Assembly: GCF_000242595.2 (NCBI RefSeq)
Contig: NC_017098.1
Coordinates: 806,001-870,000, forward strand
DNA length: 64,000 nucleotides
From: Spirochaeta africana DSM 8902
Lineage (GTDB): Bacteria; Spirochaetota; Spirochaetia; DSM-27196; DSM-8902
Direction of reading: 5' to 3'
Shown here: in pieces, positions 1,286-42,298 of the stretch
Position numbering within the stretch: position 1 is the first letter of the stretch
Layout of the letters: each line of letters starts with the position of its first letter
Program-made: the position numbers and the translations under genes
The notes under the pieces: model-generated
The model's database searches: none
What the model was told of the DNA's origin: nothing
The model's input: the letters and a program-made list of their open reading frames with translations, nothing else

Positions 1286-1315
1286 TTGACAGCCTGCTCT
1301 TTTGCCTCTCATAAT
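1286..1315 (+). promoter_or_regulatory. Promoter of the beta-glucan utilisation operon
   Basis: Consensus -35 TTGACA (1286-1291), 18-nt spacer and CATAAT (1310-1315). It lies about 85 nt upstream of the solute-binding protein start, leaving a leader long enough for operator binding. No clear dyad for a ROK or LacI regulator was recognised. Confidence 0.6.
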
Positions 1316-1401
1316 ATAGTTTGTAGGATAAACCAACCAACGGCACGGCAGTATTGTGTACACCCCGGTGGTTTTCCAAAAAAACGAAGAGGAGAGAAGC
1401 T

Positions 1402-2682
1402 ATGGTAAGAAGAGTAATTCTTATGGCCCTGAGTGCAGGACTCATTTCGGTAGCGGTGCTTGGTTGTGGGCAGCAGGAAGAAGCGGACATTCCGGCATTT
1501 GACCCGGATAAAACCTATAACCTGACATTTGGTGCATTTGGTGATCTCGAGGCGGCTTACACGGAGATTTTCGCATCCGAGCACTTTCGCTCGCAGTATC
1601 CGAACATCAACATCACCTTTCAGTCAGCAGACTTCGGGGGGCACCACGATCGTCTGACCACCCAGCTTAGCGCACGCGAGCGCACCAATGATATCGAGGC
1701 GCTTGAGGTAGAGTTTATCGCCAACTTTGTCGAGCAAGGGGATGCCCTGATCGATCTGAACCAGGAACCGTATAACGCAGAGAGTGTTATCGGGGATGTG
1801 GTCGATTTTGCGGTTGCTCAGGGACAGACCCGTGAGCTTCAGCAGGTAGCCATTCCGGTAGATATTGCACCCGCGGTACTGTTTTATCGAGCGGATCTGG
1901 CTGCCGAGGCCGGTGCCAACTTCGAGAATCTCGACAGCTGGGAAGAATACATCGAAGAGGGGCGCAAGGTTACCGGTAACGGTCGCTATGCAGTGCCGAA
2001 TGCCGCAGACGTAGCCGCAATCCCGCTGGCAGGCGGCAAGGGTGGCTGGTTGAGCGATGATGGTGAACTGCTGCAGCCCAAGGCGAAGTTCATGGAAGCC
2101 CTGCAGCTGGTTGCCGATGTCCGAGGTGCGGGGATCGATGCCGACCTGGGTGCCTGGAGCGGCCCGTGGATCGAGTCTTTTGCAAACGGTACAGTCGTGA
2201 CCATGCCAAACGGTGCCTGGTGGGGCGGTGCCCTGCGAACCTGGGTTGCCCCGGATGTAGAGGACTGGCGGGTAACCTATCTGCCAGGACGCGCAATGTC
2301 TGCACTTGGCGGCACCTACCTGAGTATTCCTTCGACTGTACCGGCCGACAACCGCGCCGCTGCCTGGGAAATTATCAAGTACCTGACCACCACCGAGGAA
2401 GCACAGCTCAAGACCTTCGATATTATTGATGCCTTCCCGGCGCTGACAACTACCTATGATCATCCGATCATGAGTGAGCCGGTGCCGTATTTCGGCAACG
2501 AGCCGGTTCGCGAGATCTTTGCTGATGTAGCCCTGAACATGCCGAACATGCGTGTCAGTGAGTATGACAACATCATCGTGAGTATCTGGGGATCGATTGT
2601 AGGCGAGGTTCTGGAGGGCGATCTGACGCCGGATCAGGCCTATGAACAGGCCCTGCGACAGATTCGGGCAACTATCGACTAA
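1402..2682 (+). CDS. Sugar ABC transporter solute-binding lipoprotein
   Basis: Family 1 extracellular solute-binding protein, 426 residues, predicted to capture oligosaccharide outside the inner membrane and hand it to the two permeases that follow. The start is ATG 1402, preceded by AGGAGAGAAGC; an upstream in-frame start at 1354 would bury the signal peptide. The signal sequence ends in a lipobox VLGC with Cys22 as the lipidation site. The mature part shows typical family features such as NGAWWGG and TYLSIPST. A strong intrinsic terminator directly downstream should make it more abundant than the membrane subunits. With glucan phosphorylases and a GH16 in the same operon, the cargo is inferred to be beta-1,3-gluco-oligosaccharides. 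No ATPase subunit is encoded here; a shared MsmK-like ATPase elsewhere is likely. Confidence 0.9.
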   Translation: MVRRVILMALSAGLISVAVLGCGQQEEADIPAFDPDKTYNLTFGAFGDLEAAYTEIFASEHFRSQYPNINITFQSADFGGHHDRLTTQLSARERTNDIEALEVEFIANFVEQGDALIDLNQEPYNAESVIGDVVDFAVAQGQTRELQQVAIPVDIAPAVLFYRADLAAEAGANFENLDSWEEYIEEGRKVTGNGRYAVPNAADVAAIPLAGGKGGWLSDDGELLQPKAKFMEALQLVADVRGAGIDADLGAWSGPWIESFANGTVVTMPNGAWWGGALRTWVAPDVEDWRVTYLPGRAMSALGGTYLSIPSTVPADNRAAAWEIIKYLTTTEEAQLKTFDIIDAFPALTTTYDHPIMSEPVPYFGNEPVREIFADVALNMPNMRVSEYDNIIVSIWGSIVGEVLEGDLTPDQAYEQALRQIRATID

Positions 2683-2690
2683 TGGTTTGT

Positions 2691-2722
2691 GTGCCGGGCG
2701 TCATGCCCGGCACTGTTTTTTA
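2691..2722 (+). terminator. Intrinsic terminator (attenuator) after the binding-protein gene
   Basis: A perfect 9-bp stem, GTGCCGGGC (2691-2699) with GCCCGGCAC (2705-2713), 5-nt loop, then a run of T (TGTTTTTTA). Because the permease genes follow on the same strand 14 nt later, it should act as a partial terminator setting the binding protein to permease ratio. Confidence 0.85.
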
Positions 2723-2735
2723 GAGGAGTTCAGCT

Positions 2736-3590
2736 GTGAAAAACAAACTGGATACACTGAACAGGGTTGGCAAAACTGTGGTGCTGTACAGTACTCTATT
2801 GGGATTTGCCGTACTGTTTTTCTTTCCGTTCTATTACATGTTCGTAATTGCCTCGCATCCGCGGGCGACAATGTTCAGGACACCACCCAATCTCTGGTTT
2901 GGCGGTGCCCTGATGACCAATATCCGGCAGTTGCTCTATGGCCAGCAGCAGATTCCATTTTTGCTGAACTACTACAACAGTGTGGCGATAGCCTTGTTGA
3001 CCGTTGTTACTACCGTGTTTTTCTGTACGATGGGCGGATTCGCCCTGGCCAAGTACGAGTTCAGATTCAAGACCTTTATCTTTTTCTTCATCATGGCGAC
3101 ACTCGCCTTTCCGCCGTTTCTTAATATCATCCCGTTTTATCGAATGATGGCTGCCTTTGGCTGGATCAACAAGTGGCGTGCACTGATTGTGCCGGGTATG
3201 GCCAATGCTATGGGGATATTCCTTATGCGGCAGTACCTGGAGGAGTCGATTCCCAAGGATCTGCTGGATGCCGCCCGCATCGACGGTATGAGTGAGTTTC
3301 GCATTCTGCTGCGAATTGTGTTTCCCCTGGCAAAACCGGCTATGGGGGTCCTGTCGATTATTGTGTTTGTCGGACAGTGGAACAACTTCCTGGGGGCCTT
3401 CATCCTGCTGCCGGGGATCCGCCGTACGACGCTGCCGGTTGCCTTGAATGCCCTGAACGCAGTCAGTTACGGGCAGTTCGGGATGGTGTATGCCGGTACA
3501 GCCCTGACTATTCTGCCACTGCTGCTGGTGTTCTTTGTGGCCTCACGACAGTTTATCTCCGGGCTGACAGCCGGAAGTATCAAGGGGTAG
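2736..3590 (+). CDS. Sugar ABC transporter permease, MalG type
   Basis: A 284-residue inner-membrane permease with about six hydrophobic segments. It has the cytoplasmic EAA loop near residues 167-200 (EESIPKDLLDAARIDGMSEF followed by RIVFPLAKPA), which docks on the ATPase. GTG start at 2736 with GAGGAG 8 nt upstream. It lies immediately after the attenuator and 5 nt before the second permease. The C-terminus QFISGLTAGSIKG is characteristic of MalG-type subunits of the carbohydrate CUT1 family. Usual gene order is MalF-type first; here the MalG-type gene precedes. Substrate inferred from the operon. Confidence 0.9.
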   Translation: MKNKLDTLNRVGKTVVLYSTLLGFAVLFFFPFYYMFVIASHPRATMFRTPPNLWFGGALMTNIRQLLYGQQQIPFLLNYYNSVAIALLTVVTTVFFCTMGGFALAKYEFRFKTFIFFFIMATLAFPPFLNIIPFYRMMAAFGWINKWRALIVPGMANAMGIFLMRQYLEESIPKDLLDAARIDGMSEFRILLRIVFPLAKPAMGVLSIIVFVGQWNNFLGAFILLPGIRRTTLPVALNALNAVSYGQFGMVYAGTALTILPLLLVFFVASRQFISGLTAGSIKG

Positions 3591-3595
3591 GATAC

Positions 3596-4516
3596 ATGAA
3601 AACAACAACAAAACTATGGGAAAAAATCGGCTTTAATCAGAAACTGGCGCCGTATGTCTTTGTCAGTCCGTTTTTTATTCTGTTTCTGATTTTCGGGTTG
3701 TACCCGCTGGTCTACTCGTTCTATATGAGTTTCTTTGATATGCGTCTGGTGGGCAACCGCGGGTTTGTCGGCCTGGCAAACTACACCCGCCTGTTCACGG
3801 TGGATGAGTTCTTTACCACAGCAATCATCAATACGGTTATCCTGTTGATATTCGGGTCGGTACTGCAGCATTTTATCGCCATACCCTTGGCGATTCTGGT
3901 AAACAGCAAGAAGGTCCGTGGCCGGCACTTGTTCAAGACGCTGTTTTTTGCACCCTACATCACCAGTGCAGTCGCGACGGTTATTATCTTCGGAATGGTA
4001 TTTGATCATAACCACGGCATGCTCAACTGGCTGCTGGAAACGGTTTTCCAGATTGAGGGGGGATTTCGCTGGACGACTCGCAGCGGGCCAATAAAGGCGG
4101 CGATCGCCATTATGCTGAACTGGCGCTTTATCGGGTTTAACATGGTGATCTATCTCGCTGGGCTGCAAAGTATTCCCGAGGAGTTGTACGAGGCTGCCGA
4201 GATGGATGGTGCTTCTACCTTGCGCCAGCACCTGCATATTACCCTGCCGATGCTGATACCGATTATCTTTTTCGGATTGACCTTGAGCATTATCGGCGGT
4301 TTCCAGCTGTTCGATGAGCCGTTCATCCTGATGGGCGGTTACGACACCCTTGGAGGCCCAGGGCAGGGCGGTCTTACGATTGCCTACTACCTTATGTTCC
4401 TCGGTTTCCGGAATGGACGACTTGGTCGCGGTGCTGCCGTAGCATGGGTGCTGTTTCTGATCATCATCATATTTACCTACATCAATCGAAAAGTGACCAA
4501 CCGCTTGCAGCGGTGA
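3596..4516 (+). CDS. Sugar ABC transporter permease, MalF type
   Basis: A 306-residue inner-membrane permease with an N-terminal membrane segment (APYVFVSPFFILFLIFGLYP) and about five more. The EAA loop is seen as EELYEAAEMDGASTLRQHLHITLPML near residues 196-222. ATG at 3596 starts 5 nt after the previous stop, with AGGGG overlapping that stop codon, so the two permeases are translationally coupled. Together with the MalG-type subunit it forms the CUT1 channel. A longer reading frame from 3377 overlaps the first permease and is not supported by a ribosome site. Confidence 0.9.
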   Translation: MKTTTKLWEKIGFNQKLAPYVFVSPFFILFLIFGLYPLVYSFYMSFFDMRLVGNRGFVGLANYTRLFTVDEFFTTAIINTVILLIFGSVLQHFIAIPLAILVNSKKVRGRHLFKTLFFAPYITSAVATVIIFGMVFDHNHGMLNWLLETVFQIEGGFRWTTRSGPIKAAIAIMLNWRFIGFNMVIYLAGLQSIPEELYEAAEMDGASTLRQHLHITLPMLIPIIFFGLTLSIIGGFQLFDEPFILMGGYDTLGGPGQGGLTIAYYLMFLGFRNGRLGRGAAVAWVLFLIIIIFTYINRKVTNRLQR

Positions 4517-4528
4517 TAGGAGTTGCAC

Positions 4529-7500
4529 ATGCAGGTTTTTCAACAGAGTGATTACTACAATCACCCGGCGTTTTCCGGCTTTCTGCCGGGGATCGCCGGG
4601 ATTCATGGTACGCCACTGTGGGTGTTTTATGTGAACCGTGGGCAGGCGATCATCAGTTTCGGCAGCGAGAGCAAGGACGGCAGCATTGCCGAGTTCTTTT
4701 CCGCAGCGGCCGCTTACCGGATGGTCTCCGAGCAGGGCTTTCGCACCTTTATCAAGGTTATCGATGACAGCTCAGCCGGCGGAAATACGCTCTACGAACC
4801 CTTTGCCTGCCAGGTAGACGGGGGCGCTACCAGTCTGCAGATCGATGCCGATGAGGTGAACCTGACAGAAACCAGCAGTGAGCTGGGTATACGTGTCGAG
4901 GTAAAATACCGCACTGTGCCCAATGCACGGGTCGGGGCGCTGATTCGGGAGGTCCGGCTGGTCAATGTGGGGGAGACCCCCGTGTCACTGGAGGTGCTGG
5001 ATGGTCTTTCGGCGGTAATCCCTGCCGGGGTGGACTACGGGGCGCTGAAAAACAATCTGACCACCGCCCAGGCCTGGATGGCTGCCAGACGCACCGGGTT
5101 GAACAGCGCGGTCTATCAGGTAGCTGCATCCCTGGAGGATACGGCGAATGTAGAAGAGGTGACACGCCTGAATTTCGCCACCGGGTATAAACAGGCGGGC
5201 GACGCCTTGCTGCCACTGGCGGTAGTGCATGACCCGGATGTGCTGTTTCCCGCTCAGCAGGCCTTGCGAACCCCAAACCATTTTGTTACGACACCGGCAG
5301 CGCAGCTGTGCGAGCAGCCGCAGATCGAGAACGGCAAGCTGCCGTGCGCCTTTTTTGCCGATACCCTTGAGCTTGCCCCGGGGGCGCATGCAACCTATTT
5401 CGAGCTGTATGGTGCGGCGGAATCTGCCGGGCTCTACCAGGAATTCTGTGCCGGTATTACCGGCCCACAGGTGATCCAGGGGTATTATGATCAGGGACAG
5501 CAGATCACTGCCGGGATTACCGATGTCTGCGATACCCGGACCGCCAATCCGCATTTTGACGCTTACTGTCGTCAGAACTTCCTGGACAACGTACTGCGGG
5601 GCGGATTCCCGCATATCGAGTATACCGACAGCAAGGACGTCTACATCCCGGTGTACTCCCGCAAGCATGGTGACCTGGAACGGGACTACAACTGGTTTGT
5701 GATTCCACCAGAGTACTACTCGCAGGGATGGGGAAACTATCGCGATGTAAACCAGAACCGGCGCTGCGATATCCTGTTTGTCCCGCAGGCGGGGTTTGAG
5801 AACCTCTGGGAGTTTGTCAGCCTGATCCAGACCGACGGGTATAATCCGCTGGTAGTACAGGGGCGCAGTTATCGTCTTGTAACACCGGAAAATCTGCCGG
5901 CTTCTGCCGGATTGCCGGCGGATATCTGGCAGCGAATGCCGTTGACTGCCGAACTGCTGGAAGGCGAGTTTTCCCCGGGGCAGCTCTACCGGACGATTGA
6001 GGATGAGGTTCCGCACGGGATTGATGGTGCGCAGGTGTTCCGGTCAGTGCTGGGGCGTTCGGATGCAATCGTGAATGCGGTGCATGGCGAGGGATTCTGG
6101 ATAGATCACTGGACATATAACAACGATCTGCTGGAAACCTGTCTTGCGGTCTTTCCCGAACAGCGTGCCGAGTTGTTTTGGAACCAACAGGTGTACCCCT
6201 ATTATCGCAACGTACACCATGTGCAGCCGCGTACGCATAAATGGCAGGTGCTTGAGGACAAGATTCGTCAGTACGATGCGGTGGAGGAACCGGAGGAAGC
6301 AGCTGAAACCACCGACTGGGTGCGGACTGCTGACGGCAGTGTGTATCTGGCAACCCTGGGGGAAAAACTGCTGGGGCTGGCGGCCATAAAGTTTCTTACC
6401 CGGGATCCTTTCGGGATCGGCATGGAAATGGAGGCTGGCAAACCTGGCTGGTACGATGCACTCAATGGCCTGCCCGGATTGATGGGTTCATCATTGCCCG
6501 AGTCGTGGGAGCTGTTAAGGTTGATACGAACCCTGGAGACCGCGGTCGTGGATGTCGATGAGCTCGCCGTAGCCGCAGAAATCGGCCACCTCTACGAGGC
6601 GATTACCGGGGTGCTTGCCATGGACTGCCGCAGCGACCGGGATCTGCATCGGCGCTGGGATACCATGGCGGCGATACGGGAAGAGTACCGGCTGCAGTGC
6701 CGTGATGGATACAGCGGAAAGCGGACGACCCTGGATCGTGAAGATCTGCAGGCGTTGCTGCGTGCCATGGAGCAGGATGTGTATGCCGGTCTGCAGCGCG
6801 GGAGGGAACGAAACAACGGGGTGTATCCTACCTACCTTACCAGCATTCCCCGGGATGCGGCCGCTGTTGCTGCCTTTACCAGGTCCGGCAAGGGAGCCGG
6901 CGAGCTGGATTTTCAGCTGCGCCCCCTGCCCCTGTTCCTGGAAGGGCTGGTTCGCGCCCTGGCAATCGAAAACGATCCCGCCGAACGGGCAGCGATCCAC
7001 GCCTCGGTTATGGGCAGTCCGCTGTATGATCGCAAGCTCGGGATGCTGCGGGTAAACGAGTCGCTGGATAAGGAATCGCACGAGATCGGGCGCGCCCGCG
7101 CCTTTACCCCGGGCTGGCTGGAGAATGGCTCGATCTGGATGCATATGGAATACAAGTACCTGCTGGCACTGCTGCGGGCCGGGCTGTACCGGGAGTTCTG
7201 GCAGCTGGCGAAAACGGCGCTGGTGCCGTTTATGGACCCCGAGGTGTACGGACGCAGTACCCTGGAGAACTCCAGCTTTATTGTGTCGAGCATGCATCCG
7301 GATGCATCCCTGCACGGCCGCGGGTTTGTGGCCCGCCTGTCCGGTTCCACCGCAGAGTTCATCAGCATGTGGGCGATCATCTTCTTCGGGCAGGAACCGT
7401 TTCGTCTGCAGGACGGGCAGCTTCAGCTGCACTTTGATCCCTGCATACCGGCGGAGCTGTTTGACAGCCGGGGCGAGGCAGCCTGCAGTTTTCTGCATGG

Positions 7501-7717
7501 CACCCGGGTGGTGTATCGCAACCCGAGTGGTTGCGATGTAATCCCGGGAGGAGATTTCGTGCCCGGCAGTATACAGGTGAAGCAGCGTGATACCGGGACG
7601 GTTCACCGCTGTACCGGCGCTATACCGTCACCCTACGCAGCGATGGTGCGAGAGGGAAAGATTGAGCGCATCGAGGTCGAGTTAATCCGGAAAGGAAAAA
7701 CCAATGAAGGGCTATAG
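4529..7717 (+). CDS. Large inverting glucan phosphorylase (GH94-clan; GH149/GH161-like)
   Basis: A 1062-residue cytoplasmic enzyme of the GH94-related phosphorylase group, which splits beta-glucosidic bonds with phosphate to release glucose 1-phosphate. The N-terminal third is a beta-sandwich; an (alpha/alpha)6 barrel follows. The segment EGFWIDHWTYN (about 521-531) resembles the catalytic-Asp motif of the oligo/polyglucan phosphorylases, making Asp526 the candidate general acid. The length exceeds GH94 disaccharide phosphorylases (roughly 800-900 residues) and fits the long beta-1,3-glucan phosphorylases placed in GH149/GH161; that assignment is from memory of those families, not a search. 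ATG 4529 has GGAG 6 nt upstream; the in-frame TTG at 4523 is less likely. Its 3' end overlaps the next phosphorylase by 14 bp. Beta-1,3 specificity is inferred from the GH16 neighbour. Confidence 0.75.
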   Translation: MQVFQQSDYYNHPAFSGFLPGIAGIHGTPLWVFYVNRGQAIISFGSESKDGSIAEFFSAAAAYRMVSEQGFRTFIKVIDDSSAGGNTLYEPFACQVDGGATSLQIDADEVNLTETSSELGIRVEVKYRTVPNARVGALIREVRLVNVGETPVSLEVLDGLSAVIPAGVDYGALKNNLTTAQAWMAARRTGLNSAVYQVAASLEDTANVEEVTRLNFATGYKQAGDALLPLAVVHDPDVLFPAQQALRTPNHFVTTPAAQLCEQPQIENGKLPCAFFADTLELAPGAHATYFELYGAAESAGLYQEFCAGITGPQVIQGYYDQGQQITAGITDVCDTRTANPHFDAYCRQNFLDNVLRGGFPHIEYTDSKDVYIPVYSRKHGDLERDYNWFVIPPEYYSQGWGNYRDVNQNRRCDILFVPQAGFENLWEFVSLIQTDGYNPLVVQGRSYRLVTPENLPASAGLPADIWQRMPLTAELLEGEFSPGQLYRTIEDEVPHGIDGAQVFRSVLGRSDAIVNAVHGEGFWIDHWTYNNDLLETCLAVFPEQRAELFWNQQVYPYYRNVHHVQPRTHKWQVLEDKIRQYDAVEEPEEAAETTDWVRTADGSVYLATLGEKLLGLAAIKFLTRDPFGIGMEMEAGKPGWYDALNGLPGLMGSSLPESWELLRLIRTLETAVVDVDELAVAAEIGHLYEAITGVLAMDCRSDRDLHRRWDTMAAIREEYRLQCRDGYSGKRTTLDREDLQALLRAMEQDVYAGLQRGRERNNGVYPTYLTSIPRDAAAVAAFTRSGKGAGELDFQLRPLPLFLEGLVRALAIENDPAERAAIHASVMGSPLYDRKLGMLRVNESLDKESHEIGRARAFTPGWLENGSIWMHMEYKYLLALLRAGLYREFWQLAKTALVPFMDPEVYGRSTLENSSFIVSSMHPDASLHGRGFVARLSGSTAEFISMWAIIFFGQEPFRLQDGQLQLHFDPCIPAELFDSRGEAACSFLHGTRVVYRNPSGCDVIPGGDFVPGSIQVKQRDTGTVHRCTGAIPSPYAAMVREGKIERIEVELIRKGKTNEGL

Positions 7718-10454
7718 TTTTGTACATCCTCGCGGGGATTTTGTGCTCCCGCATGCCGACAGAACCAACGGACTGTATTTTCCGCTGGCGAACGAGGCTG
7801 GTTATATGGCAGCGATCACCCCGACTGGCGGCGGCGATGCCAAGATAGATCAGAACCATTTCCTGCTGCCTCCGGCAGCAGTGGTTGATCTGCATAATAC
7901 CAGATTCACTCGCACCATCTGGGTGCGATTTGACGATGGTTCCTGCTGGTCTGCAACCGGCAGTTCTCATGAGCAGAAGGCCGCGGAACCTGAGCTGCAC
8001 ACGGTTGAGGCCGGGCTGCTGTGGCACAAGACCATTCGGAAGCATGCGGCCAGGCCGTTGACTGCCGAGATAGTGAGTTTTGTACCGAATGATGAGGTTA
8101 CGGCCGAGGTTGTTCGATTCACCTTGCGCAATACTGGTGCGTCGCCGCTGCGAGTCCTTCCGACGGCAGTGGTGCCGCTGTTCGGTCGATCGGCAGATTC
8201 GCTGCGGGATCATCGTCATGTTACGGCTCTGCTCAACCGTGTGGAGATAACCAGTCAGGGCGTGCTGCTGCAGCCTTCCATGAGCTTCGATGAACGTGGC
8301 CACTCGGTAAATACTACGGTGTATGCGGTGATGGGGCGCCGTGGCGACGGCAGTCTGCCAACGGGGTGTTTTGCTGATCTGGACAGTTTTATTGGTGAGG
8401 GCGGCGATCTTGAACGGCCTGCAGTAATATATTCGCCCGAGCATGCCGATGCTGTTCGATTGAGTCCCGGTGATGTCGTGGAAGGCAGCGAAGCTCTCGG
8501 GGCGGTGCAGTTCGACCAGGTAGAGATTGCGCCTGGTGCGGAGATCCAGCTGTACTGTCTGGCCGGGGTATTCGCCCATACAGACGGGGCCGCCCGGGCA
8601 GCTGAGCGCTACTGCAATCCCGCCGGGTTTGAGGCTGCCCTGGCTGCAAACCGTGAGTTCTGGGATGCCAAGCTCAACACGGTTTCCTGTACTACGGGTA
8701 ACAGTGAGTTTGATGCCTGGATGCGCTGGGTGTCACTTCAGCCGATCCTGCGACGATTATACGGCTGTTCATTTTTGCCTTACCACGACTATGGCCGCGG
8801 CGGCCGCGGCTGGCGCGATCTGTGGCAGGACTGTCTTGCGCTGCTGCTGATGGAGCCCGACAGTGTTCGTGAGAGTCTGCTGCAGAATCTGGCCGGGGTG
8901 CGCTTTGACGGTACGAACGCTACGATCATCGGCAGTCGGCCGGGGGAGTTTGTTGCCGATCGAAACAATATCACCCGGGTATGGATGGATCATGGCGCCT
9001 GGCCGTTAATGACCATCCAGCTGTATATCGACCAGACCGGGGATTCAGGATTTCTGTTTGAATCCCAAACCTATTTCTCTGATCCGCAGTGGGGCCGGGC
9101 TTCCCGAAAACTGGATGCCACTCGGGGCGATACCCTCCTGTACGATCAGACCGGTGGGGTGGTGCGCGGCAGTGTATTTGAACACCTGCTGCTGCAGCAG
9201 CTCTCGGCCTTTTTCCATGTAGGGGATCACAACTCGATTCTGCTGGAGGGTGCTGACTGGAACGACGGCCTGGACATGGCGGCCGACCGCGGAGAGAGCG
9301 TGGCCTTTACCGGACAGTATGCCGCGAACCTTGCCTGGCTGGCCGGGGTTCTGGAACAGGTCTCTGCCGAGGTCACCGAGATAGCGTTGCACCATGAGAT
9401 ACTGCAGCTGCTGGACCGCTATGCTGGTACGCCGGTCGATTACGATGATCCGGCAGCCAAGCGCGCCCGGCTGCAGTCGTTCTTCGACTCCTGCCAGCAG
9501 GGGCCGTCCGGAGAGATGGTCAACGTAGCGGCTGTTGATCTGGCCGCCGACCTGCGGGCCAAGAGTGACGCCATGATCGATCATCTGCGAAACCGGGAGT
9601 GGATTCAGACCCCGGATGGCCATGGATGGTTTAACGGATATTACGACAATGACGGTGAACGGGTCGAGGGGGGCGGTACCGACAGCCCGCGGATGACCCT
9701 GACCGGTCAGGTGTTCCAGGTGCTTGGCGGTGTAGCCGACGAGCAGCAGGTTGACCGTATCGTGGCAGCCGCAGATGCGCATCTGTGGGACGACGCGGTT
9801 GGCGGCTATCGCCTGAACACGGACTTCCGGGAGCTCAAACTGAATATGGGGCGCTGCTTCGGGTTTGCCTATGGGCACAAGGAAAACGGGGCGATGTTCA
9901 GCCATATGGCGGTGATGTTTGCCAATGCCCTGTACGCTCGCGGCCGGTCGCAGGCAGGCTGGCGTACTCTCGAGGCGATATTCAATGCGGCCAGTCGATT
10001 CTCTGCATCCAGGATGTATCCGGGGATTCCCGAGTATTTTGATCCCAAGGGCAGGGGGCTCTACCCGTATCTGACCGGTTCGGCCTCGTGGTATCTGCTT
10101 ACCGTGGTAACCCGCATGTTCGGCGTGCGTGGTCACTATGGGGATCTGGTGCTGGATCCACAGCTGCAGGCCGCGCAGTGGGGTGAGCTCGACAGTGTCT
10201 CCGTGTGTACCTACTTTCGCCAGCGGCAGCTGCAGATAGTATACCGGAATCCGGAAGGTCTCGATGTCGGTGAGTATCGTGTTACTGCCGTTGTCGCGGA
10301 CACCGGTGAGCTTGCCTTTACCCTGCGTGATGGTGCCGCGGTGATAGACGGGGCGGCTATAGACCGCGTGGCTATGGACTGCACGGGCCCCGAGCAGGCC
10401 CCAACCGTGCTGCGGGTCGAGCTCGGACGCCGGGACAATGGAGCAGGCGTATGA
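7704..10454 (+). CDS. GH94 phosphorylase, laminaribiose/cellobiose phosphorylase type
   Basis: A 916-residue GH94 glycoside phosphorylase, cytoplasmic (no signal peptide). It starts at ATG 7704 inside the end of the preceding gene, so it is translationally coupled. The beta-sandwich (1-280) includes YFPLANEAGYMAAITPTGGGDAK. A helical linker and (alpha/alpha)6 barrel follow, with the family motif EGADWNDGLD; Asp518 is the predicted general acid. RNREWIQTPDGHGWFNGYYDND and ENGAMFSH are further barrel motifs. Length and N-terminus resemble laminaribiose phosphorylases more than the ~810-residue cellobiose phosphorylases. Likely job: convert the disaccharide left by the large phosphorylase into glucose plus glucose 1-phosphate, saving ATP. 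Laminaribiose over cellobiose is inference. Confidence 0.85.
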   Translation: MKGYSFVHPRGDFVLPHADRTNGLYFPLANEAGYMAAITPTGGGDAKIDQNHFLLPPAAVVDLHNTRFTRTIWVRFDDGSCWSATGSSHEQKAAEPELHTVEAGLLWHKTIRKHAARPLTAEIVSFVPNDEVTAEVVRFTLRNTGASPLRVLPTAVVPLFGRSADSLRDHRHVTALLNRVEITSQGVLLQPSMSFDERGHSVNTTVYAVMGRRGDGSLPTGCFADLDSFIGEGGDLERPAVIYSPEHADAVRLSPGDVVEGSEALGAVQFDQVEIAPGAEIQLYCLAGVFAHTDGAARAAERYCNPAGFEAALAANREFWDAKLNTVSCTTGNSEFDAWMRWVSLQPILRRLYGCSFLPYHDYGRGGRGWRDLWQDCLALLLMEPDSVRESLLQNLAGVRFDGTNATIIGSRPGEFVADRNNITRVWMDHGAWPLMTIQLYIDQTGDSGFLFESQTYFSDPQWGRASRKLDATRGDTLLYDQTGGVVRGSVFEHLLLQQLSAFFHVGDHNSILLEGADWNDGLDMAADRGESVAFTGQYAANLAWLAGVLEQVSAEVTEIALHHEILQLLDRYAGTPVDYDDPAAKRARLQSFFDSCQQGPSGEMVNVAAVDLAADLRAKSDAMIDHLRNREWIQTPDGHGWFNGYYDNDGERVEGGGTDSPRMTLTGQVFQVLGGVADEQQVDRIVAAADAHLWDDAVGGYRLNTDFRELKLNMGRCFGFAYGHKENGAMFSHMAVMFANALYARGRSQAGWRTLEAIFNAASRFSASRMYPGIPEYFDPKGRGLYPYLTGSASWYLLTVVTRMFGVRGHYGDLVLDPQLQAAQWGELDSVSVCTYFRQRQLQIVYRNPEGLDVGEYRVTAVVADTGELAFTLRDGAAVIDGAAIDRVAMDCTGPEQAPTVLRVELGRRDNGAGV

Positions 10455-10888
10455 CTGGCACACGGGACATCCTGGTAGAGGTTCATGAATATATCGAGGA
10501 TGGCTACCGCCCGGTTGTCGATTATAACGGCTGGCGGGTGGCGGTACTGAACTATCACCCCGAGCTGCTGCCGGAAAACCTGCAGGATTTTCAGCGGCAC
10601 GACGAAACCGATGAGGTCTTTATACTGGTGTGCGGGCGCTGTCTCCTGCTGACCGGTGACGGTACCACCACCGTCGGTACCATTCATGCGATGGATCTGG
10701 AACCAGGCAAGGTCTACAACGTCAAGCGCGGCGTCTGGCACTCGCATACCCTGAGCAGGGATGCGCGGGTGATGATTGTGGAGAATACCGATACCGGCGA
10801 GCACAACTCGCCGCGCTGCATGCTTACCGAGGAACACAAGCGCCGGATTGTCGAGCTTGCCGCCGAACACGGGTACACAGAAACGTAA
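10451..10888 (+). CDS. Small cupin-domain protein of the glucan operon
   Basis: A 145-residue single-domain cupin. It contains a motif-1-like stretch HDETDEVFIL (about 50-59) and a motif-2-like stretch around GKVYNVKRGVWHSHTLS (78-94), giving the His/Glu set expected for a metal site. The start ATG overlaps the previous stop as ATGA, so it is co-translated with the GH94 enzyme. It precedes the GH30 gene by 10 nt. No enzymatic function can be assigned; a sugar-sensing or isomerase-like role would fit the operon, but nothing in the sequence proves it. Confidence 0.65.
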   Translation: MTGTRDILVEVHEYIEDGYRPVVDYNGWRVAVLNYHPELLPENLQDFQRHDETDEVFILVCGRCLLLTGDGTTTVGTIHAMDLEPGKVYNVKRGVWHSHTLSRDARVMIVENTDTGEHNSPRCMLTEEHKRRIVELAAEHGYTET

Positions 10889-10898
10889 AGGATCTGAT

Positions 10899-12260
10899 AT
10901 GGAGACAAGAATCATTCAAACCAGCCAGCGGGCCGGCGGAGAGATATGGCAGGAGGTGTCTGCACTGGCAGCGGCCGATGCACTACACCCTGCCGCGGTT
11001 ATTACCGCCGGGAATCCGCGGCGCCCCGACCCGATGCGGGGTTTTGGCGGTGCGTTTACCGAGTCCGCCGCCTGGGTGTGGTCCCGGCTTCCGCAGACCG
11101 AGAAGCAGGCGGTGCTGACCGGCTATTTTGACCCGGTACAGGGACTTGGCTATCGCTACGGGCGGACCCATATGAACAGCTGTGACTTTTCGCTGGGGAA
11201 TTACGCTGCGGTGGATGTCCCTGGCGATGAGAAGCTGTGGTCGTTCTCGTGCGAGCGTGAAAAAGGGTGTTTGTGGCAGTTTATCCATGCCGCCTATGAC
11301 CTGCAGCAGGAGCCGATACCGCTGCTGTTGTCGCCCTGGAGCCCCCCTGCCTGGATGAAGACCAATCAGGAGATGAACAATGGCGGCTCGCTCCTGCCGG
11401 AGTACCGGCAGGCATGGGCACGGTATTTCGTGCGCTATATCGCAGAGATGCACAAGCAGGGATTCCGGGTGTTCGGGGTTACCGTGCAGAACGAGCCGGA
11501 GGCCACCCAGACCTGGGACAGTTGTCGCTATTCTGCCGGGGACGAGGCGGTGTTTATCCGGGACCATCTCGGACCGGCTCTGGTGCAGGAAGACCTGCAG
11601 GATGTGGGAATCTATTTCTGGGACCATAATCGTGACCTGGTGTATGACCGGGCATGCGAGGTGCTTGCAGATCCGGCTGTTGCCCGCTATATCTCCGGCC
11701 AGGCGATCCACTGGTACTCGGGGGATCAGTTCGATCTGGTCGAACGTACCAAGCGTGAGTTCCCCGACAAGGAGATGATCTTCTCCGAGGGATGCATCGA
11801 GGGCGGGGTCAAGCTGGGAGAATGGGATCGGGGCGAGATCTATGCCCATAACATGATCGGCGACCTGAATGCCGGGGTAACCCTCTGGCTGGACTGGAAT
11901 ATGCTGCTTGATCTGCAGGGTGGGCCGAACCACGTGGGCAATTTTTGTGATGCCCCCATGATTGCCGACCTGGATGCTGGACAGCTGCATCGACAGTCAT
12001 CCTATGCCTATATCGGTCATTTCAGCCGCTACATCCAGCCGGGGGCTGTCTGTCTCGATTTTGTGATGGAGAGCGAGACTGCCAGTGCGGTCGAGACGAC
12101 GGTGTTTCGCAATCCGGACGGGGAAACAGTATGTGTACTCCTGAACCGCAGTGATAATCTCGAGAATATCACCGTCCAGGGATCGCACGGCAGCACGAGC
12201 GTGTCGGTAGCACTGCCAGCGCATTCAATAACCACCGTACTTATTGCCAACAAGGAGTAA
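10899..12260 (+). CDS. GH30 family beta-glucosidase/beta-glucanase (cytoplasmic)
   Basis: A 453-residue GH30 enzyme. Visible hallmarks are GFGGAFTESAAW (~48-59) and SPWSPPAWMKTN. Catalytic acid/base Glu199 lies in TVQNEPEATQTWDSC and nucleophile Glu297 in IFSEGC. Further conserved family features are GVTLWLDWNMLLD and GGPNHVGNFC. A beta-sandwich half-domain closes the C-terminus (CVLLNRSDNLENITV). There is no signal peptide, so it works on imported oligosaccharides. Start ATG 10899 follows AAAGGATCTGAT. In a laminarin pathway it could remove beta-1,6 branches or act as an exo-beta-glucosidase, jobs known for GH30 subfamilies; which subfamily was not determined. It starts 10 nt after the cupin stop and is followed 5 nt later by the GH16 gene. 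Confidence 0.85.
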   Translation: METRIIQTSQRAGGEIWQEVSALAAADALHPAAVITAGNPRRPDPMRGFGGAFTESAAWVWSRLPQTEKQAVLTGYFDPVQGLGYRYGRTHMNSCDFSLGNYAAVDVPGDEKLWSFSCEREKGCLWQFIHAAYDLQQEPIPLLLSPWSPPAWMKTNQEMNNGGSLLPEYRQAWARYFVRYIAEMHKQGFRVFGVTVQNEPEATQTWDSCRYSAGDEAVFIRDHLGPALVQEDLQDVGIYFWDHNRDLVYDRACEVLADPAVARYISGQAIHWYSGDQFDLVERTKREFPDKEMIFSEGCIEGGVKLGEWDRGEIYAHNMIGDLNAGVTLWLDWNMLLDLQGGPNHVGNFCDAPMIADLDAGQLHRQSSYAYIGHFSRYIQPGAVCLDFVMESETASAVETTVFRNPDGETVCVLLNRSDNLENITVQGSHGSTSVSVALPAHSITTVLIANKE

Positions 12261-12265
12261 TGCAT

Positions 12266-13708
12266 ATGCCAGCCGTTCGGAAGATGATCCTGTCTGTGAG
12301 TATCGCACTTTTTGCCGTAGGGGTGTTTGCCATAGTGTTCTATGTGACTGCCGGCTCCACCGGTAGAGTAATTCCGCACCTGCAGGAGCAAGAGAACCTG
12401 CTTGGTAATCCCGGATTTACCGGTACCCCATCGGCACCTTCCCAGCTGCGAGAGGACGGGAATTACGATACCGGAGGCGACTGGCAGATGCTGCTGTTTG
12501 ATGGTGCCCGGGCAGAGGCACGCCCTGTAAATGGGGCCGTGCAAGTGGCGATCGATGCTGCCGGCCCGAACACCTGGTCGGTGCAGCTACTGCAGGCCCC
12601 GCTTACGATCGAACAGGGACAGGAATACGAGGTCGAGTTTGTCGCCTGGGCCGAGGAGCCGCGTGAGATTGAGGTCAAGGTGGGTGGTGCGGCAGACAGG
12701 TCATGGACACCGTACAACCCTGGCGAAGGCGGCAACGCCGGAGGGACCATGGTAGAGCTATCCACCGAACCCGAGCTGCATCGCTTCCGGTTCAGTATGC
12801 TGCAGGAAACCGATACCCAGGCTCGCTTTGAATTCGAGCTGGGCAGAGAAGCCGGTGATGTCTGGCTGGCCGGGGCCAGGCTGACTCCTGTTGGAACAGT
12901 AGCCCTGGAGATGTCCGTAGACAGCCCCGAGGTTGAAAACCTTCTCGCGGCAGACTGGGAGCTGCGCTTTGCCGAGGAGTTTGATACCCCCGAGATCAAC
13001 AGGGATATCTGGAGCTTTGAAACCGGAAACGGTCATGCCAATGGAATCCCCGGGTGGGGCAATGCCGAGCTGCAGTACTATACCGATAGTCCCGACAATG
13101 CCTTTATTCGAGACAATCGACTGGTTATCCGTGCACAGGAAGAAGAACGTTCGGATCAGTTCGGAAGGTACGATTACACCTCGGCGCGCATGATCACCCA
13201 GGATAAACTGACGGTACGCTATGGCCGGATTGATGTCCGGGCACGCCTGCCGTATGGCCAGGGGGTATGGCCGGCAATCTGGATGTTAGGCAGCAATATC
13301 CCTGAGGTAAGCTGGCCCCGCAGCGGTGAGATAGATATTATGGAGATGCTTGGACACGAGCCGTACACTGTACATGGCACCATTCACGGTCCGGGATATT
13401 CCGGCGGTGGCGGTATCGGGGCGGCCTACGAGAGTGAGAGCAATTTCTCCGAGGAGTTTCATGTATTCACTATCCTGTGGAATGAGGATGTAATTGTCTG
13501 GCTGGTGGATGGCGATTACTTTCACCATGTTACTGCCGAGTACGTCGAGCGTTTCTATGCAGCTGACTGGGTGTTTAACCAGGAGTTCTTTTTTATCCTG
13601 AATGTTGCGGTAGGTGGACACTGGCCAGGCTATCCGGACGACACTACCAGCTTTCCGCAGGAGATGGAAATCGATTACCTGCATGTGTACGACAGGATTC
13701 GTTCCTGA
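12266..13708 (+). CDS. GH16 endo-beta-1,3-glucanase (laminarinase) with N-terminal CBM
   Basis: A 480-residue exported enzyme. Residues 9-30 are a hydrophobic signal anchor or signal peptide. Residues ~45-210 form a CBM4/9-like jelly roll (NLLGNPGFTG, GQEYEVEFVAWAEE). Residues ~230-480 are the GH16 domain with catalytic signature EIDIME: nucleophile Glu355, assisting Asp357, acid/base Glu360. The WPAIWMLG segment and the terminal EMEIDYLHVYD match bacterial laminarinases. ATG 12266 is 8 nt after AAGGAG; the ATG at 12260 is too close. It is the last gene of the operon and the only obvious extracellular depolymerase, feeding fragments to the ABC importer. No lipobox was seen, so membrane tethering by an uncleaved anchor is possible. 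Confidence 0.88.
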   Translation: MPAVRKMILSVSIALFAVGVFAIVFYVTAGSTGRVIPHLQEQENLLGNPGFTGTPSAPSQLREDGNYDTGGDWQMLLFDGARAEARPVNGAVQVAIDAAGPNTWSVQLLQAPLTIEQGQEYEVEFVAWAEEPREIEVKVGGAADRSWTPYNPGEGGNAGGTMVELSTEPELHRFRFSMLQETDTQARFEFELGREAGDVWLAGARLTPVGTVALEMSVDSPEVENLLAADWELRFAEEFDTPEINRDIWSFETGNGHANGIPGWGNAELQYYTDSPDNAFIRDNRLVIRAQEEERSDQFGRYDYTSARMITQDKLTVRYGRIDVRARLPYGQGVWPAIWMLGSNIPEVSWPRSGEIDIMEMLGHEPYTVHGTIHGPGYSGGGGIGAAYESESNFSEEFHVFTILWNEDVIVWLVDGDYFHHVTAEYVERFYAADWVFNQEFFFILNVAVGGHWPGYPDDTTSFPQEMEIDYLHVYDRIRS

Positions 13709-15334: not shown

Positions 15335-17296
15335 ATGTATGATCGTCATCTTCATCCGTTGTTGGTCCGTTTTCTCGAAGGACTCAAACCCTCACCTTTC
15401 AGCAAAAAGCATGCCGGCTTTGTAACCCGCCTGTCGGCGGCATTTGACGAGTTTTACCGGGAGTACATGCGAATTTATGGTCATGTCCCCGGTGCCGAGC
15501 AGCATTTTCTGGATCTGCTGTCCTCATTGTGGGATGCGCATCGGGATCGTCCGGAGGATCTGCATGCGCGCGATCGCCAGCGAGAGGCGAACACCGACTG
15601 GTATCTGGAACCCAAGCTGGTTGCTGCCCAGATCTACCTGGATCGCTATGCCGGTGATCTTGCGGGGCTGCAGCGGCATCTGGATTACCTGCAGGAGCTG
15701 GGGATTACCGTGGTGCACCTGATGCCGATCCTGGATATGCCCGAGGGCGAGAACGACGGCGGATATGCGGTACGCGACTACCGCAAGATTGATCGCCGGT
15801 TTGGCACGATGGAACAGGTAGAAGAGCTGTCGCGCGAGCTGACCAGGCGCGGGATGCTGCTTCAGATGGATCTGGTGGTCAACCACACCGCTGATTCCCA
15901 TGAGTGGGCCCGCAAGGCGCGAGCCGGGGATCCGGCATACATCGACTACTACTATTTCTACAACGACCGCACCGTACCAGACGCCTTCGAGGCCTCGATG
16001 CCGGAGGTGTTCCCGGCGACCGCGCCGGGCAATTTTACTCACATCCCGGAGCTGGATAAATGGGTGATGACGGTCTTTCATCGCTACCAGTGGGATTTGA
16101 ACTACACCAATCCCACGGTGTTTCGCGAGATGGTGGGGATACTGCTGTATCTGGCTAACCGGGGGATCGATGTGATCCGTCTGGATGCGGTGCCGTTTCT
16201 CTGGAAGCAGATCGGCACCAACTGCCAGAATCTGGAGCAGGCGCATCAGCTGCTGAGGTTGTTTGCCCTGGCTTACAAGACGGTCGTGCCCAGTCTGGTG
16301 ACTATCTCCGAGGCGATTGTGCAGCCGCACGAGGTAGTGCGCTACTTCGGGGACGGCGATTTTGCGGGGCGCGAGACCGAGATTGCCTACCATGTTTCAC
16401 TGATGGTGCTGCTGTGGGATGCGGTGGCGACCACCAATGTACGGCTTCTTACAACCGGGCTGGAAAATATGCCGGAGATTCCCCGGGGTTGTACCTGGCT
16501 CACCTACATTCGCTGCCACGATGACATCGGGATCGGGTTTTCCGATGACGATGCACGGGCAGTCGGTTACGACCCGGCGATGCATCGCGCCTTCTGGAAG
16601 GAGATGTTTACCGGGAAGTTTCCGGGGTCGGTCAGCCGCGGCGAACTGTTTATGGAGAACAAGGCCACAGGCGATGCCCGCATCAGCGGCTCGGCAGCAT
16701 CGCTGGCAGGGCTGGAGTATGCCCTGTCCGTCAATGATCCGGCACTGGTGGATGCGGCGATCGATAAACTCTGCATGCTCTACGGGGTGGTGTTCAGCTA
16801 TGGCGGGATTCCGATTGTGTACTACGGTGACGAGATCGGCTATCTGAACGACTACGCGCACCGCAATCGGGAGGCCGAGCGCGAGGATAACCGCTGGATG
16901 CATCGCCCGATATTTGATTGGGACAAAGCTGCACTGGCAAAAGAGCAGGGTACGGTTGAGTACCGGATCTATCACCGGATGCAGCGCATGATTGCCGCCC
17001 GCAAGGCGATTGCCGAGTTCGGGCATCTTACCCAGCCGGAACTGGTGGCGTCCGGCAACGAGCATGTTTTTACCTTTTTGCGACATCTGGGCAGCAGTCG
17101 CACCCTGGTTGCTGCCAATGTTTCGCCCCAGGCACAGGTGATACCCCAGCACCTGATACACCGGATCTACGATGTGCCGGAGGCCGGCAACCTGACCCGG
17201 GTGCAGGATGTGATTACCGGCAGCTCCCCGACGATCCAGCAGGGACAGCTGCTGCTGCAGCCCTATCAGATCCTGTGGCTGCGGGATCCAGGTTGA
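15335..17296 (+). CDS. Amylosucrase (GH13 subfamily 4)
   Basis: A 653-residue GH13 enzyme matching the length and domain order of amylosucrases: helical N-domain (1-90), (beta/alpha)8 barrel with a long B' insertion, and C-terminal beta-sandwich. Catalytic signatures: region I DLVVNHT, region II DVIRLDAV with nucleophile Asp284, region III TISEAIV with acid/base Glu326, region IV RCHDDIG with His395-Asp396. The segment FLWKQIGTNCQNLEQAHQL resembles the equivalent region of the Neisseria enzyme as I remember it. No signal peptide, so it is cytoplasmic. It cleaves sucrose and transfers glucose to alpha-glucan, releasing fructose; a pure sucrose hydrolase is the alternative. TATAAT at 15321-15326 lies 8 nt before the ATG, another possible leaderless start. 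Confidence 0.88.
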   Translation: MYDRHLHPLLVRFLEGLKPSPFSKKHAGFVTRLSAAFDEFYREYMRIYGHVPGAEQHFLDLLSSLWDAHRDRPEDLHARDRQREANTDWYLEPKLVAAQIYLDRYAGDLAGLQRHLDYLQELGITVVHLMPILDMPEGENDGGYAVRDYRKIDRRFGTMEQVEELSRELTRRGMLLQMDLVVNHTADSHEWARKARAGDPAYIDYYYFYNDRTVPDAFEASMPEVFPATAPGNFTHIPELDKWVMTVFHRYQWDLNYTNPTVFREMVGILLYLANRGIDVIRLDAVPFLWKQIGTNCQNLEQAHQLLRLFALAYKTVVPSLVTISEAIVQPHEVVRYFGDGDFAGRETEIAYHVSLMVLLWDAVATTNVRLLTTGLENMPEIPRGCTWLTYIRCHDDIGIGFSDDDARAVGYDPAMHRAFWKEMFTGKFPGSVSRGELFMENKATGDARISGSAASLAGLEYALSVNDPALVDAAIDKLCMLYGVVFSYGGIPIVYYGDEIGYLNDYAHRNREAEREDNRWMHRPIFDWDKAALAKEQGTVEYRIYHRMQRMIAARKAIAEFGHLTQPELVASGNEHVFTFLRHLGSSRTLVAANVSPQAQVIPQHLIHRIYDVPEAGNLTRVQDVITGSSPTIQQGQLLLQPYQILWLRDPG

Positions 17297-41452: not shown

Positions 41453-41525
41453 CGGGCTGTAGCGCAGCGGTTAGCGTACAAGTCTGGGGGACTTGGGGTC
41501 GGCGGTTCGAATCCGCCCAGCCCGA
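41453..41525 (+). tRNA. tRNA-Pro (anticodon GGG)
   Basis: A 73-nt cloverleaf: acceptor CGGGCTG/CAGCCCG with discriminator A, D-arm GCGC/GCGT, anticodon stem CAAGT/ACTTG with loop CTGGGGG (anticodon GGG), T-arm GGCGG-TTCGAAT-CCGCC. The 3' CCA is not encoded. It is followed directly by an intrinsic terminator. Confidence 0.95.
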
Positions 41526-41875: not shown

Positions 41876-42298
41876 ATGCGAGACCGTGATTTTTTATACC
41901 CGTTCGCCTTAGTGCAAACACTTGTGCCCGACTTGGGGTCACAGAGGTACAATATACGCCATAGAGTAACCTTTACCCTGTTAAAGAAAACCGTGCCATC
42001 CAGGAAGAAAATCTATTATTACACCGTCTACGATCAGTTTAATCGGCGCAGGCAGTATTCTACCGGAGCTACCACTAAAGCTGATGCAATGACCTACGAT
42101 GTACGTAAATTCTCTCGTGGAGACCTGAAGCCGGTTCTTACCCGCAAGATCGGTACCTTTGCAGAGAATTACTTCTATTGTGCAAACGAAATCCATTGGC
42201 CCTGTTTGACTTTGTATATTGGAATAACGATAATGAGCAATAAATCAGCAAGAGGATCGGAACTGTTTCCTCCTGTACGGGTAAATGCGCATGTATAA
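41876..42298 (+). pseudogene. Truncated tyrosine recombinase (integrase) N-terminus
   Basis: The central part, FTLLKKTVPSRKKIYYYTVYD followed by QFNRRRQYSTGATTKADAM and KIGTFAENYFY, resembles the arm-binding and core-binding start of phage-type integrases (basic residues, YYYTVYD, a STG-x-T-x-AxA pattern, then TFAExYF). The catalytic domain with its Arg, His and Tyr is missing. After about residue 107 the sequence no longer looks like the family, and the frame runs into the start of the hybrid kinase gene. It sits about 350 bp downstream of the tRNA-Pro gene and its duplicated 3' end, the usual place for an integrase. The true start is uncertain, since ATG 41876 lies right after a TATACT box. 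Confidence 0.55.

Follow-up and report, generated by a model that had tools for sequence, protein, structure and literature searches.

The 64,000-nucleotide stretch of the Spirochaeta africana genome analysed here (the window; the whole genome forms one contig of 3,285,855 bases) carries eight same-strand genes between positions 1402 and 13708 of the + strand. Their order is solute-binding protein (SBP), permease, permease, GH161, GH94, cupin, GH30 and GH16. The genes and the features that flank them are listed below.

1286..1315, + strand: sigma-70-like promoter, TTGACA-N18-CATAAT (11/12 consensus matches, the region's best)
1318..1338, + strand: predicted ROK operator, AGTTTGTAGGATAAACCAACC, an imperfect inverted repeat (AGTTnG-n6-AAAYYAACY)
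1402..2682, + strand: ABC solute-binding lipoprotein, SBP_bac_8, with a hydrophobic N-terminus and an LGC lipobox
2736..3590, + strand: ABC permease, MalG/UgpE-like
3596..4516, + strand: ABC permease, MalF/UgpA-like
4529..7717, + strand: predicted GH161 β-1,3-glucan phosphorylase, 1062 aa (792 bits to PDB 9h8v/9qqk, residues 3-1050)
7704..10454, + strand: GH94 enzyme of the laminaribiose phosphorylase type, 916 aa (934 bits to PsLBP, PDB 6ggy, residues 2-886)
10451..10888, + strand: small cupin, 145 aa, CA_C3497 family (match to PDB 3d0j, E 1.6e-13)
10899..12260, + strand: GH30 glucosidase, 453 aa, no signal peptide, predicted cytoplasmic (catalytic Glu motifs NEP at 198 and SEG at 296)
12260..13708, + strand: laminarinase-type GH16 endo-β-1,3-glucanase, 482 aa, with a CBM_4_9 domain and a hydrophobic N-terminal segment
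13717..14934, − strand: convergent ROK-family transcriptional regulator and candidate operon repressor (start codon picked by eye)

All of the genes named in a preliminary description of this locus were found on the + strand where it had placed them, although its gene list lacked the 145-aa cupin between GH94 and GH30. Its starting point, position 1286, is the −35 box of the promoter-like site, upstream of the first gene at 1402. Promoter-like sites overall were no more numerous in the region than in shuffles. The genes are tightly packed, as had been described, but they overlap at three junctions only (14 nt between GH161 and GH94, 4 nt between GH94 and the cupin, and 1 nt between GH30 and GH16). 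The other four junctions have gaps (SBP/permease 53 nt, permease/permease 5 nt, permease/GH161 12 nt and cupin/GH30 10 nt). Gene order had also been read as a clue to the pathway, with cutting of the polymer first. It does not mirror pathway order, because GH16 stands last. A perfect 10-bp GC-rich hairpin with a T-run lies at 2691-2713, immediately 3' of the SBP gene. Hairpins with reduced downstream transcription are common after SBP genes, and this one, a likely attenuator, could keep SBP above the downstream genes.

Family placement of the two phosphorylases was by bit scores to solved structures, which put the 1062-aa enzyme in GH161 and not in GH149. In phmmer searches against the PDB it scored 792 bits to GH161 structures over 1048 residues, as against 31 bits for a GH94 laminaribiose phosphorylase and 26 for 6hq6, a GH149 structure. 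The NCBIfam GH149 model likewise gave 79.6 bits against a curated cut-off of 1150. Thus, the earlier label of GH149/GH161-like holds for its GH161 part and not for its GH149 part. Placement in a cellodextrin or 1,2-glucan phosphorylase clade, which had been named as the outcome that would speak against the proposal, did not occur. Of the two near-identical GH161 structures, 9qqk is labelled GH161 and 9h8v carries the depositors' label 'cellobiose phosphorylase'.

The catalytic motifs of the large enzyme are intact. Its RD motif (R405-D406), general acid D643 (in WYD) and phosphate-site H872 are invariant in the alignment of its relatives (A1), and are also present in 9h8v. Clan GH-Q enzymes share an RD motif, a general-acid Asp and a phosphate-site His (PMC6771811; PMC6484121), and we infer that the residues found here have the roles they have in that clan (PMC6771811). 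By homology, we assign the enzyme β-1,3-glucan phosphorolysis. The characterised GH161 enzymes in a 2022 review numbered three, each a β-1,3-glucan phosphorylase (PMC8950772); one of these, TaCDP, was initially reported as a cellodextrin phosphorylase (PMC6484121). Another GH161 enzyme, PapP, acts on chains down to DP 3, so that laminaribiose remains, and in the synthesis direction it extends several β-linked disaccharides (PMC6484121). The linkage specificity of a single GH161 member is therefore not absolute.

The 916-aa GH94 enzyme is placed in the laminaribiose-phosphorylase group by its scores. It gave 934 bits to PsLBP from Paenibacillus sp. YM-1 (6ggy), and the runner-up in the PDB gave 70 bits. 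We rejected its placement with cellobiose, cellodextrin or chitobiose phosphorylases, for which every PDB match scored 70 bits or less. The resemblance to PsLBP extends over the full length and includes the catalytic motifs, which align at D521 (WND), D372 (RD) and His734 of the phosphate site (FSHM). However, identity between the two is only moderate and the operon enzyme is known from its sequence; its activity on laminaribiose is assigned by homology. A genome search found no second GH94, which makes this the sole copy. As GH161 enzymes leave laminaribiose and this GH94 is of the laminaribiose type, it is an exactly matching partner enzyme. Both family assignments thus came out as had been proposed.

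The GH16 enzyme is of the laminarinase type as judged by its matches and its motif. Its best PDB matches were the laminarinases 4dfs and 3azx (339 bits), and it has a β-bulge motif (ExDxxE), GEIDIME, at residue 356. This motif marks GH16 enzymes of the laminarinase type (subfamily 3 type). Its strongly hydrophobic N-terminus could be a cleaved signal peptide or a membrane anchor. It is also the only GH16 in the genome, where a search found no other. The nearest solved relatives of the GH30 enzyme were SrfJ and human glucosylceramidase. The β-1,6-glucanase BT3312 was more distant, and the BT3312 β-1,6-glucanase model gave 220 bits against a cut-off of 700. Going by its gene context, GH30 is likely to be a β-1,6-debranching enzyme.

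The importer described earlier is present as an SBP and two permeases, but the operon has no gene for its ATPase. One MalK-type ATPase is encoded elsewhere in the genome. Nothing in the locus accounts for passage of the oligosaccharides through the outer membrane. Outside the operon, the same genome also has two genes of the phosphoglucomutase/phosphomannomutase family and three GH3 genes.

We consider it very probable that the operon is inducible and serves growth on β-1,3(1,6)-glucan of the laminarin type, with phosphorolysis by GH161 and then by GH94. The polymer would be cut by GH16 outside the cytoplasm, as its N-terminus suggests. The SBP and the two permeases may then import laminari-oligosaccharides using a shared ATPase encoded elsewhere, and the cytoplasmic GH30 may take off β-1,6-linked side residues. 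GH161 would phosphorolyse chains of at least three glucoses to α-glucose 1-phosphate and, finally, laminaribiose, from which GH94 and phosphate would yield glucose 1-phosphate and glucose. Phosphoglucomutase would lead on to glycolysis, with one ATP spared per cleaved bond. The ROK protein is predicted to repress the promoter through AGTTnG-n6-AAAYYAACY just past the −10 box, and a sugar ligand would release it. Family placement, intact motifs and a laminarinase-type GH16 make the pathway well supported by homology.

A different substrate, mixed-linkage β-1,3/1,4-glucan such as lichenan or cereal glucan, seems improbable. Blautia producta does use mixed-linkage glucan by phosphorolysis, with a GH16 and a GH94 (PMC10318527), and the operon GH16 scores to a model for EglC-type β-1,3-1,4-glycanases, albeit far under its cut-off. 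However, the GH94 of B. producta is of the cellodextrin type and inactive on laminaribiose (PMC10318527), whereas that of the operon is of the laminaribiose type. In addition, the operon GH16 has the laminarinase β-bulge motif and matches laminarinases best, and β-1,4 bonds would stall a β-1,3 phosphorylase. Least probable, by our reckoning, is a storage role, in which the phosphorylases would work in the synthesis direction or remobilise a β-1,3-glucan store inside the cell, as GH161 may in chrysolaminarin-storing algae: phosphorolysis is reversible and GH161 is present in heterokonts that store β-1,3-glucan (PMC6484121), but catabolism is indicated by the importer genes in the operon, the export-type N-terminus of the laminarinase and the predicted control by ROK.

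The closest known systems to the proposed laminarin operon are the GH94-GH161 tandem loci of Kuhaudomlarp et al. 2019 (PMC6484121), together with the adjacent GH161/GH16/GH3 and GH94 clusters of Acholeplasma laidlawii. These share with the spirochaete operon GH161 and a laminaribiose-type GH94, sequential cytoplasmic phosphorolysis, in some cases GH16, and an ABC importer that mostly lacks its own ATPase. In contrast to them, the spirochaete operon has GH30 as well as GH16, a cupin, a convergent ROK gene and a predicted operator, and it lacks GH3 and GH1. The laminarin locus of Bacillus weihaiensis (GH161, GH30, GH1 and GH16; PMC6484121) is similar in combining GH161 with GH30 and a GH16 laminarinase. 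There, however, a hydrolytic GH1 finishes the disaccharide, where the spirochaete operon has a second phosphorylase, and GH30 is predicted to be secreted, whereas the spirochaete GH30 has no signal peptide. As a concept, a complete route that pairs two unlike phosphorylases is not new, given the GH94-GH161 tandems (PMC6484121); the parts that look new are the cupin and the operator. The remark that such a pathway is little described in spirochaetes was fair, as the GH161 paper (PMC6484121) does not mention them. The operon extends a known energy-saving β-glucan route to free-living spirochaetes. Their habitat here is probably salt and soda lakes, in which algal glucans are a plausible food.

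A scan for GH161, with one genome per species, gave at least 554 confirmed relatives among at least 578 candidates, from which the best 80 were kept. A GH94 like that of the operon lay within the fetched flanks at 58 of these best 80 of at least 554 loci, so pairing of GH94 with GH161, described as a tandem in 2019 (PMC6484121), is the rule among them. ABC permeases were found at 46 of the same 80 loci, GH30 at 26 and GH16 at 6. The full set of GH161/GH94, GH30, GH16 and importer was rarer; among the best 80 loci, and within the taxonomic order to which S. africana belongs, it was seen in the window and at L033. One carrier of GH161 is Halapricum hydrolyticum HArc-curdl7 (L091), a haloarchaeal strain obtained with curdlan as the substrate for isolation. 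Growth on laminarin is a trait of isolates of this kind (PMC9726719), which fits the substrate assigned to GH161.

Within the phylum, GH161 was present in 11 of 393 sampled genomes and is thus uncommon in spirochaetes, not unique. The closest relatives among the matches listed were three Spirochaetaceae MAGs (L038-L040), which we take, going by their isolate names, to be from soda-lake metagenomes. The locus is largely conserved in soda-lake-type Spirochaetaceae and in other families of the order. In FastTree phylogenies, GH161 from seven genomes of the order formed one clade (local support 99), with the phylum's other GH161 sequences placed outside it, and GH94 from six genomes of the order also formed one clade (local support 96). 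These single clades argue for shared inheritance within the order and against recent separate gain. In one relative (L008/L034, G015:C20), GH161 matched in two pieces, one with an in-frame TGA, and is possibly a decaying gene. That locus yielded no GH94 and no cupin.

An orthologue of the ROK gene is present at the loci of relatives. The predicted operator, which looks new, recurs in six genomes in the region preceding the SBP gene (the window, L031, L032, L034, L037 and L165). L165 covers the stretch that precedes the SBP gene at the L033 locus; a ROK-like gene there, recognised by eye, is divergent. As the motif was built from these same upstream regions, its conservation is descriptive. By eye, one copy lies directly 3' of a −10-like box in the window and most relatives, with a second copy further downstream in L031 and L032. 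Placement of the motif over the start region suggests that the ROK protein acts here as a repressor. With up to one mismatch allowed, the 64-kb window held one match where 0.05 were expected by chance, and the genome had no exact match besides the operon's own site. One-mismatch sites elsewhere in the genome were about as frequent as those of a reversed-pattern control and were taken as chance, as was an exact match in a Lachnospiraceae genome (L112).

The cupin has the fold and family of CA_C3497 from Clostridium acetobutylicum (PDB 3d0j). Its predicted structure (pLDDT 89) matched 3d0j with Z 19.7, compared to Z 9 to 12 for other cupins, at a sequence identity of about 27-28%. H50, E55, H97 and H99 were invariant in eight homologues, and this His50/Glu55/His97/His99 pattern is as expected for a metal site. 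A cupin lies beside GH161/GH94 at six spirochaete loci (the window, L032/L039, L031/L040, L033, L097 and L144). At L144, from another family, the order is GH94-cupin-GH161, and at L097 the cupin follows GH161, with no GH94 within the fetched stretch. It is also near GH161/GH94 at three Lachnospiraceae loci (L068, L074 and L104), although at L068 and L074 it sits past the ABC permeases and does not adjoin the phosphorylases. GH161 and the cupin occurred together in 4 of 393 genomes of the phylum, where 0.36 were expected (hypergeometric p 2e-4, with kinship ignored). This conserved association looks new.

Replacement of phosphoglucose isomerase (PGI) by the cupin was considered. The idea is weakened by a canonical PGI gene elsewhere in the genome, and in fold the protein resembled cupin PGI (Z about 10) no more closely than it did many other cupins. 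The protein is probably a metal-binding accessory that acts on or senses a pathway sugar. Our more specific proposal, that in spirochaetes and some Lachnospiraceae it is a dedicated component of β-1,3-glucan phosphorolysis, such as a sugar isomerase or epimerase that depends on a metal, or a product sensor, is tentative. Two leads follow from the locus: a cupin that travels with phosphorylases and a predicted ROK operator specific to the operon. Distant homologues of the cupin also occur in other spirochaete sugar operons (L145 and L147), beside transketolase-like and Gfo/Idh-like genes, the neighbours being named by eye from their N-termini.

Elsewhere in the window, a 653-aa GH13 enzyme is encoded past the ROK gene (15335-17296); its best NCBIfam model was that of the TreS N-terminal domain, far under cut-off. 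A hybrid histidine kinase at 42285-45266 has a phosphonate-type periplasmic binding domain as sensor, with receiver and Hpt domains, and lies where G+C is low (0.47), near a tRNA-Pro at 41453.
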